Assembly: GCA_017882185.1 (NCBI GenBank) | Contig: JADGQA010000009.1 | Coordinates: forward strand, 1 to 34,801 | Length of the DNA stretch: 34,801 nucleotides | Reading direction: 5' to 3' | DNA from: Bacteroidota bacterium | GTDB lineage: Bacteria; Bacteroidota; Ignavibacteria; UBA10030 | Shown: positions 16,460-18,505 of the stretch, in pieces | Position numbering within the stretch: position 1 is the first letter of the stretch | How the letters are laid out: every line of letters starts with the position of its first letter | Notes under the pieces: generated by a model | Database searches by the model: none | What the model saw: only the letters and a program-made list of their open reading frames with translations | Told to the model about the DNA's origin: nothing | Program-made: the position numbers and the translations under genes

Positions 16460-18310
16460 CTATTCCTCGTCAACCACTGCTTTTTTCTTGGACATCCGAT
16501 TGCGTTCGTTTTGATCCAGGTACCTCTTTCGCAACCTGATGTTCTTTGGTGTCACCTCCACATACTCATCATCGCCGATCCATTCGATTGCCTGTTCCAG
16601 TGTAAGGAGACGGGGAGGCTCAAGTCGCACTGCCTCATCGGACCCCGAGGCACGCATATTCGTGAGCTGCTTCGTGCGGCAAACGTTGACGACCATATCG
16701 TACTCGCGCGAGTTTTCACCCAGCACCATGCCCGCATAGACCGCAAGTCCCGGCTCGATGAAAAATGTGGAGCGCTCCTGGAGTTTCCACATTCCGTATG
16801 CGACGGACTCGCCGTCTTCGAGCTGGATAAGCGCCCCCTTCGTGCGATGCGGCACTTCACCTTTGTTTGGCTCATAGCCGTGAAAATTATGATGGAGAAT
16901 GCCCGTTCCCTTGGTCTGCGTGAGGAATTCCCCACGGAAGCCGATCAATCCGCGCGCAGGCACAAGAAACTCAATACGCGTGTTCCCCTGCGACTGAAGC
17001 ATGTTCCTCATCTCACCCCGGCGCTTGCCGAGGTTCTCGATCACGGCCCCGACGAACTCGTCGGGCACATCGATGATGACGTGCTCCACCGGTTCGCACA
17101 TCACGTCGTCAATCCGTTTGTAGATTACTTCCGGCCTCGAGACCTGGAATTCGTACCCTTCTCGCCTCATCGTCTCGATCAGGATGGCGAGATGCAATTC
17201 TCCACGACCACTCACGCGGAAAACATCCGGTGAATCTGTCAGCTCGACGCGCAACGCCACGTTGGACCGCAACTCACGCTGTAGTCGTTCTCCAAGATGG
17301 CGCGTGGTAACGTACTTGCCTTCCAGTCCCGCGAAGGGTGAATTGTTGACCATGAAATTCATCGAGAGGGTCGGTTCTTCGATCGAAACGAAGAGCAGCG
17401 GCGTGGGATCTGCCGCATCCGCTATGGTCTCGCCGATATCGACGTCTTCCATTCCGGCAATGGCGATGATGTCCCCCGCGTGCGCTTCTGTCACTTCCAT
17501 CCGCTTCAGACCTTCGAACGTATAGATCTTTGTGACGCGTGCATCCTCCACCGTCCCTTCCCGGTGAATGATTTTCATCGGAGAGCCGAGACGAATTGTT
17601 CCGCGGTGGATCCTTCCAATCCCGAGACGTCCGAGGTAGTCGTTGTAGTCGATCGTCGTGACAAGCATTTGAAAAGGGAGATCGCTGTCGCCTGGGGGAG
17701 GCGGGATTTTATTCACAATTGCTTCGAACAAAGGTTCAAGCGATGATCCTTCGTCCTCCAACTCAGTCTTGGCAATTCCCTGTTTGGCGATACAGTACAG
17801 GATTGGGAAATCAAGCTGCTGGTTATTGGCGCCCAGAGAGAGGAACAATTCAAAGACTTCGTCCAGCACCTCGTGAGGCCGGGCGTCTTTCCTGTCAATC
17901 TTGTTGATGACGACAATCGGCTGGAGGTTGAGCTCAAGTGATTTTTTTAGTACGAATTTTGTTCCCGGCAACGGTCCTTCGGCCGCATCGACAAGAAGGA
18001 GCACACCGTCCACCATTTTGAGCGTACGTTCCACCTCCCCGGCAAAGTCCGAGTGGCCGGGGGTATCAACGATATTGATCTTGAACGTTGATTTGTGCGC
18101 TTTTGATTTGTAAAAGACTGAGGTGTTTTTCGCAAGAATGGTAATCCCGCGTTCGCGCTCCAACTCGTTGGAATCCATGACCCTCGTCACCATTTCCTGG
18201 TTCGCCCGGAATGTCCCTGTTTGGCGTAACATGTAATCTACCAGCGTCGTTTTGCCGTGGTCGACGTGGGCAATGATGGCGATGTTGCGTATTTCTTCTC
18301 TTCGATGCAT
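16460..18310 (-). CDS. typA: Translational GTPase TypA/BipA
   Basis: Ribosome-associated GTPase of 616 residues, the usual BipA length, involved in 50S assembly and stress or low-temperature growth in other bacteria. All G motifs are visible: AHVDHGKT (14-21), ERGITI, DTPGHSDF and NKID. EF-G-like domains II, III and V follow, and the BipA-specific C-terminus carries NFHGYEPNKGEVPHRTKGAL and ends with a Lys-rich tail. ATG 18310 is preferred because GGAG (CTCC at 18316-18319) is well spaced. A GTG at 18346 would lie inside the leader hairpin and is rejected. The leader of about 43 bases begins with a terminator-like stem-loop, so expression may be controlled by attenuation or mRNA stability. 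Confidence 0.96.
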   Translation of the reverse strand: MHRREEIRNIAIIAHVDHGKTTLVDYMLRQTGTFRANQEMVTRVMDSNELERERGITILAKNTSVFYKSKAHKSTFKINIVDTPGHSDFAGEVERTLKMVDGVLLLVDAAEGPLPGTKFVLKKSLELNLQPIVVINKIDRKDARPHEVLDEVFELFLSLGANNQQLDFPILYCIAKQGIAKTELEDEGSSLEPLFEAIVNKIPPPPGDSDLPFQMLVTTIDYNDYLGRLGIGRIHRGTIRLGSPMKIIHREGTVEDARVTKIYTFEGLKRMEVTEAHAGDIIAIAGMEDVDIGETIADAADPTPLLFVSIEEPTLSMNFMVNNSPFAGLEGKYVTTRHLGERLQRELRSNVALRVELTDSPDVFRVSGRGELHLAILIETMRREGYEFQVSRPEVIYKRIDDVMCEPVEHVIIDVPDEFVGAVIENLGKRRGEMRNMLQSQGNTRIEFLVPARGLIGFRGEFLTQTKGTGILHHNFHGYEPNKGEVPHRTKGALIQLEDGESVAYGMWKLQERSTFFIEPGLAVYAGMVLGENSREYDMVVNVCRTKQLTNMRASGSDEAVRLEPPRLLTLEQAIEWIGDDEYVEVTPKNIRLRKRYLDQNERNRMSKKKAVVDEE

Positions 18311-18330
18311 CAATTCTCCGAAATAAAAAT

Positions 18331-18353
18331 GCCTCAGGTTGCACACCTAAGGC
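18331..18353 (-). promoter_or_regulatory. typA leader hairpin, terminator-like
   Basis: On the minus strand GCCTTAGGT pairs with ACCTGAGGC (nine pairs, one G-U) around GTGCA, followed by ATTTTTATTT. The predicted transcription start coincides with its base, and the typA ribosome binding site lies 11 bases after it. It may be an attenuator, a 5'-end protector or a second terminator. Confidence 0.5.
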
Positions 18354-18359
18354 ACTCAC

Positions 18360-18387
18360 AAGATACGGAAATTCGGCTTCAAATCAA
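18360..18387 (-). promoter_or_regulatory. Predicted typA promoter
   Basis: On the minus strand TTGATT (18382-18387), a 16-base spacer and TATCTT (18360-18365). The start would lie near 18353. Its -35 overlaps the T-tract of the terminator for the upstream gene. Confidence 0.5.
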
Positions 18388-18415
18388 AAACGGTCCCCAC
18401 CCATTGGATGAGGAC
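18386..18415 (-). terminator. Rho-independent terminator of the upstream outer-membrane gene
   Basis: On the minus strand GTCCTCATCC pairs with GGGTGGGGAC (ten pairs, two G-U) around an AAT loop, followed by CGTTTTTGATTT. It lies about 90 bases after the stop codon at 18506. Confidence 0.75.
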
Positions 18416-18505
18416 TGATTGAATCACCTACAGGAGCGGGTTTTTACCTCCGACCTTACTTCACGGTGCGGATTCTCCCAGCTCCCTACGCTGCTAACAA
18501 GTTCT

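Follow-up and report, generated by a model that had tools for sequence, protein, structure and literature searches.

What is a terminator-like hairpin doing at the very start of the message for a translational GTPase? This question is raised by the leader of typA (bipA) in a bacterial DNA stretch of 34,801 nucleotides, which is called the window here. A preliminary description of the locus had placed a nine-pair hairpin directly after a predicted promoter and followed it with a T-tract, GGAG and an ATG, and this arrangement was confirmed on the minus strand. The identity of the gene is given by its Pfam GTP_EFTU and BipA_C matches. The features of the locus are as follows.

19621-18506, minus strand: DUF6588 gene, upstream of typA and co-directional with it
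18393-18415, minus strand: terminator 1, the hairpin at the end of the co-directional DUF6588 gene upstream
18382-18387, minus strand: -35-like TTGATT, weak, 16 nt from the -10 element
18360-18365, minus strand: -10-like TATCTT, a hexamer conserved in leaders
18331-18353, minus strand: nine-pair hairpin GCCTTAGGTGTGCAACCTGAGGC, with a longest form at 18327-18357 (13 pairs)
18321-18330, minus strand: T-tract ATTTTTATTT of the terminator-like hairpin
18316-18319, minus strand: GGAG, Shine-Dalgarno-like
16460-18310, minus strand: typA (bipA) translational GTPase, ATG at 18310-18308, stop at 16460

The promoter part of the minus strand reads TTTTTGATTTGAAGCCGAATTTCCG-TATCTT (18365-18360)-GTGAGT and then GCCTTAGGTGTGCAACCTGAGGC (18353-18331), and 3' of the hairpin the strand continues with ATTTTTATTT (18330-18321), a C, GGAG (18319-18316), AATTG and ATG. 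The T-tract of terminator 1 (18384-18392) reaches into the typA -35 region. Farther upstream, the 3' region of the DUF6588 gene (18416-18505, minus strand) shows a stable-looking fold for which no Rfam match and no relatives by blastn were found. Transcription usually starts seven bases after a -10 element, and because of this geometry the predicted +1 of typA falls on the first base of the hairpin, the first G of its stem.

Within the window, the hairpin with its T-tract (18353-18321) has nine pairs, a folding energy of -16.2 kcal/mol and a z-score of -4.8, with none of 200 shuffles as good; were the RNA to start six bases earlier, it would form 13 pairs at -19.9 kcal/mol. Scans of the whole window were far less discriminating. 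The terminator scan includes the typA-leader hairpin (13 pairs) among its sites but was not significant (8 sites against 6.8 expected), and promoter-like and terminator-like sites were no commoner in the window than in shuffles. For this reason no weight was given to consensus scans. The typA promoter itself scores only 8 of 12 against the Escherichia coli consensus, and neither it nor its TTGATT appears on the list from the consensus promoter scan of the window, so its reality rests on conservation. Taken alone, the window scans would suit the reading that a chance hairpin lies near a chance TATCTT, and it is the comparison with relatives that bears on this.

The comparison set comprised 98 genomes of the order in six families (f1-f6), with the genus of the window represented by the window genome alone. 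A blastn search with the intergenic stretch returned best relatives that cover the promoter and hairpin and lie before typA. A total of 72 typA leaders were collected: typA was matched in 82 genomes, 71 of which contributed a leader, and G016 was added. Outside this set are ten leaders truncated or incomplete around the start of the gene and that of G039, which also carries the hairpin. A fixed test was then applied. It asked for TATxTT or TACxTT (x not G) as the -10 element, a hairpin with seven or more pairs and -10 kcal/mol or better no more than 40 nt downstream, and then five or more T in eight positions. Fifty-one of the 72 leaders passed (f1, 24/27; f2, 2/2; f3, 1/1; f4, 7/13; f5, 5/13; f6, 12/16), compared with a mean of 1.95 of 72 for shuffled leaders (20 rounds); among 520 control gene starts with 50 nt or more of intergenic DNA, 24 passed. 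These 24 include one leader each of typA, rimP, lepA, trigger factor and rpmH-rnpA, as named from translations. Among the 21 typA leaders that fail, some keep the hairpin with another -10 element or a weak match (e.g. G015, G072 and G054), and others show none (e.g. G061, G068, G070, G086 and G087). The preliminary description had named a lack of hairpin conservation, or a promoter downstream of the hairpin, as grounds for abandoning its proposal. The hairpin is kept in relatives, and sequence comparison of the typA leaders revealed no conserved promoter element downstream of it.

A stricter search used the exact pattern GTATCTT, 2-30 nt, GCCTC, 4-28 nt, GAGGC, N, TTTT. It gave 21 matches across the order, in single copy in 21 of the 98 genomes and all before typA by coordinates, while the reversed pattern gave none in the same genomes; the window is not among the matches because its 5' arm reads GCCTT. 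Extended to the class (391 genomes), a version starting with TATCTT matched 30 times, in 29 genomes; 24 of these matches lie at typA in this order, and the reversed pattern matched 6 times. The promoter-hairpin unit is associated with one gene, typA, and with its sense strand. In a more distant set of typA leaders (21 parsed of 22), none has TATxTT close before a terminator-like hairpin. Two leaders of this set (L186 and L189, 78-82% identity) have a hairpin and T-tract without the TATxTT hexamer, and they probably belong to the order itself. Leaders from Kryptoniota and similar genomes (L176-L188) keep a TTATCTTAT-like typA promoter and have a long leader with no proximal hairpin.

Covarying pairs in orthologous leaders, proposed at the outset as a check on the hairpin, were looked for in an alignment running from the -10 element to the T-tract of 50 of the 53 leaders with a hairpin match (G022, G023 and G079 were left out). 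Pairing was found in 92.2% of 398 cells at eight pairs, a percentage inflated by the selection of rows for having a hairpin, compared with 82.6% when the 3' letters were shuffled and 33-45% when the arms were slid. Both sides of a pair had changed in 65 cells against 22.7 in shuffles, with none of 500 shuffles as high, and three stem pairs show double-sided change in 10 to 20 sequences. On the other hand, the count of further pair types was no higher than in shuffles (486 of 500 reach it). Given this null result and the preselected rows, the covariation is taken as support for the fold and not as proof. RNAalifold, unaided, recovers seven of the eight pairs. The stems are mainly GCCTC..GAGGC in f1, f2 and f4 and GTCCC..GGGAC in f6, and in part GCTTC..GAAGC or GAGGC in f5. 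Taken together, conservation, covariation and controls indicate that the unit of promoter, hairpin and T-tract is not chance, and we regard the chance reading as refuted.

A second possibility is that the hairpin belongs to the neighbour, either as the terminator of the upstream gene or as an insulator against read-in, as the co-directional DUF6588 gene of the window might suggest. The DUF6588 gene, however, is closed by a terminator of its own (18415-18393). Moreover, when neighbour orientation was typed by longest open frames for 45 of the 50 unit-bearing leaders, 19 neighbours were divergent and 26 co-directional. In 14 of the co-directional cases a second terminator precedes the promoter, as it does in the window, which leaves 12 without one. 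The neighbour reading is largely refuted by these figures and we consider it very improbable. The same figures bear on the idea that promoter and hairpin form an independent gene for a tiny sRNA that sits before typA by accident. The distance from hairpin to ATG (10-186 nt, median 67) and the presence of other sequences in between in some genomes would fit such a gene, but in one family after another the unit accompanies typA whichever way the neighbour points, and the letters of the stem vary between families with the fold kept, which fits a terminator better than a base-pairing sRNA. This reading therefore appears improbable as well.

The reading we favor is that the typA leader acts as a riboswitch-free attenuator built on a promoter-proximal intrinsic terminator, read-through of which would make the typA mRNA; judged from sequence, we give it a probability of roughly 0.6. 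A predicted promoter, a hairpin and a U-tract in the 5' UTR are what such an attenuator calls for, and the 51 passing leaders have them. Its main competitor is a 5'-terminal stabilizer, in which a blunt hairpin would shield the 5' end of full-length typA mRNA from decay and the U-tract would be incidental or a ribosome standby site. The two readings differ in what they ask of the U-tract, which is needed by termination and not by mere stabilization. When a -10 element and hairpin were picked without any T criterion, they were found in 52 of 72 typA leaders and 30 of 520 controls; at least five T in the eight positions after the hairpin then followed in 39 of the 52 and in 7 of the 30. The U-tract thus favors termination. 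Spacing, for its part, gives the stabilizer some support. In f1 the -10 element is exactly 6 nt from the stem G in 15 of 24 rows and 5 nt in two, and the 6-nt spacing recurs in three of five f5 rows; this places the stem at +1, and many f1 RNAs may have the hairpin as their very first bases. Elsewhere the spacing is 9 to 36 nt, and in f2, f3, f4 and f6 the hairpin lies downstream of the expected start. We therefore consider the stabilizer unlikely as the principal role, while noting that where an f1 RNA does start with the hairpin, protection of the read-through mRNA could come along with termination. The start at the base of the hairpin put forward in the preliminary description is likewise a prediction from the -10 geometry.

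Other kinds of leader control were considered and set aside. A start-masking RNA thermometer has to cover the Shine-Dalgarno sequence or the start codon, but in the window leader the Shine-Dalgarno sequence falls outside the nine-pair hairpin, and the variable distance to the ATG makes such a device unlikely. For a riboswitch or T-box attenuator, the 5-36 nt from -10 element to stem leave no room for an upstream aptamer and antiterminator, and Rfam gave no match for the window or for ten leader loci. A possible leaderless mini-ORF (ATG CCT CAG ...) at the start of the hairpin is broken in the window and absent from many relatives, and its ATG is explained by the closing T-A pair. The original suggestion of cis-regulation through a structure at the RNA start is supported by conservation and covariation, with the U-tract favoring termination as its form. 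For its temperature component direct support was not found: the position of the hairpin relative to the Shine-Dalgarno sequence and ATG speaks against a start-masking thermometer, and the sole link to temperature is that BipA in E. coli serves as an assembly factor required in the cold (PMC8313970). This role also prompted a look at antitermination by cold-shock proteins, which is not preferred because PMC6511841 reports data at odds with the idea for the E. coli nusA-infB operon.

Conservation, order, strand and covariation of the promoter-like element, hairpin and U-tract were computed directly, and from them we infer a start site, termination, read-through and an acting factor in the following way. 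RNA polymerase would start at the TATCTT promoter, and the first transcribed bases would fold into the hairpin. On reaching the U-tract, a sizeable share of the complexes would let go of a tiny RNA, about 33 nt long in the window genome. Across leaders, RNAs of about 30-60 nt would be the outcome of many starts, and the fraction reading through would yield typA mRNA. The hairpin has hardly any transcript ahead of it from which an antiterminator could be built, so control would have to target either the polymerase or the hairpin itself. NusA or another elongation factor, a protein binding the hairpin, or the speed of elongation could provide it, and NusA is our first guess for the factor tuning typA read-through.

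The same layout was found before other genes. Among rimP leaders, at the head of rimP-nusA-infB, the fixed test was passed by 28 of 30 loci, these being the best-scoring from 83 genomes with a match, and one of the two misses (L316) does carry a hairpin. Their stems are gene-specific (AATAGCCCG..CGGGCTATT or AAGTCCCGC..GCGGGACTT). The rimP-nusA-infB leaders concerned are L295-L324, L426, L428 and L429, and the genome of the window has the same succession of promoter, hairpin and T-tract before its own rimP. For lepA, 17 of 20 leaders passed, the 20 (L325-L344) being our own choice from 90 genomes; most f1 leaders share a long GGAGTAAAGRGTG..CACTCTTTACTC hairpin right after a TATATT or TATCTT promoter. 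The lepA leader of the window genome has a GGAGTAAAG hairpin after TATATT and fails the strict test. Since typA, rimP-nusA-infB and lepA share this layout, read-through may be set in common for ribosome-related genes.

Results were sparser at other genes. With a looser test, the layout was seen in 6 of 20 tex leaders, all of family f6 (L348, L351, L355, L359, L361 and L365), where TATCTT is followed after 1-7 nt by a GCACCGCAGAAATG..TTTCTGCGGTG hairpin and a TTTATTTGTAC-like tail. The looser test was also passed by 6 of 29 trigger factor leaders, and some of these matches look accidental. Around 15189 of L252 (minus strand), a promoter, hairpin and T-tract lie about 190 nt before rnpA, and this unit is probably the rpmH-rnpA leader.

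Attenuators of this kind are already known. PMC6829880 describes GraL in the E. coli greA leader, where a terminator forms in the 5' UTR 19 nt after the promoters, the RNAs are 37-59 nt long and about one third of starts read through. The typA leader resembles GraL in having an intrinsic terminator, here a predicted one, in the 5' UTR straight after the promoter; it differs in gene and phylum, and in f1 the hairpin is predicted to start from +1 and to give RNAs of about 30 nt. Termination so close to the promoter may be inefficient, with f1 RNAs shorter than those of GraL. A second precedent is the rimP leader, which PMC2965389 calls the most ubiquitous transcription attenuator, with a short terminator, no visible antiterminator and NusA as the best candidate factor. 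Like it, the typA leader has a predicted 5' terminator without a visible antiterminator, conserved before a ribosome-related gene. The rimP motif given there is GGGc..gCCC in most species, whereas the rimP leaders of this order have CCCG..CGGG. The typA stems (GCCTC..GAGGC, GTCCC..GGGAC and similar) do not match the published rimP motif, nor did the window or the ten leader loci give an Rfam hit, and neither typA nor lepA is mentioned in the main text of PMC2965389. Third, PMC12288461 reports that NusA in Bacillus subtilis autoregulates by intrinsic termination in the nusA leader. In that case, termination in a leader sets the supply of an elongation factor which in turn promotes termination, and rimP-nusA-infB has such a hairpin in this order, whereas at typA or lepA a role for NusA would be an extrapolation from these cases. 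In the openly available literature, as far as it could be viewed, no report linking typA or bipA to attenuation or early termination was found. What appears new is the membership of typA and lepA, and this lineage.

More speculatively, a single elongation-stage checkpoint, most simply NusA, might set the supply of several ribosome-related factors at once. It would act through terminators lying no more than about 50 nt into the transcripts of typA, lepA and rimP-nusA-infB. The choice of start site could in addition tune termination at typA, where the hairpin would start from +1 and the RNA be about 30 nt long. We give this idea a low probability. If such control is conserved at typA, a single elongation-stage control would link three ribosome-related transcription units in a lineage that metagenomes have mostly made known, and the typA leader would raise the question of how close to its promoter an intrinsic terminator can lie and still work.
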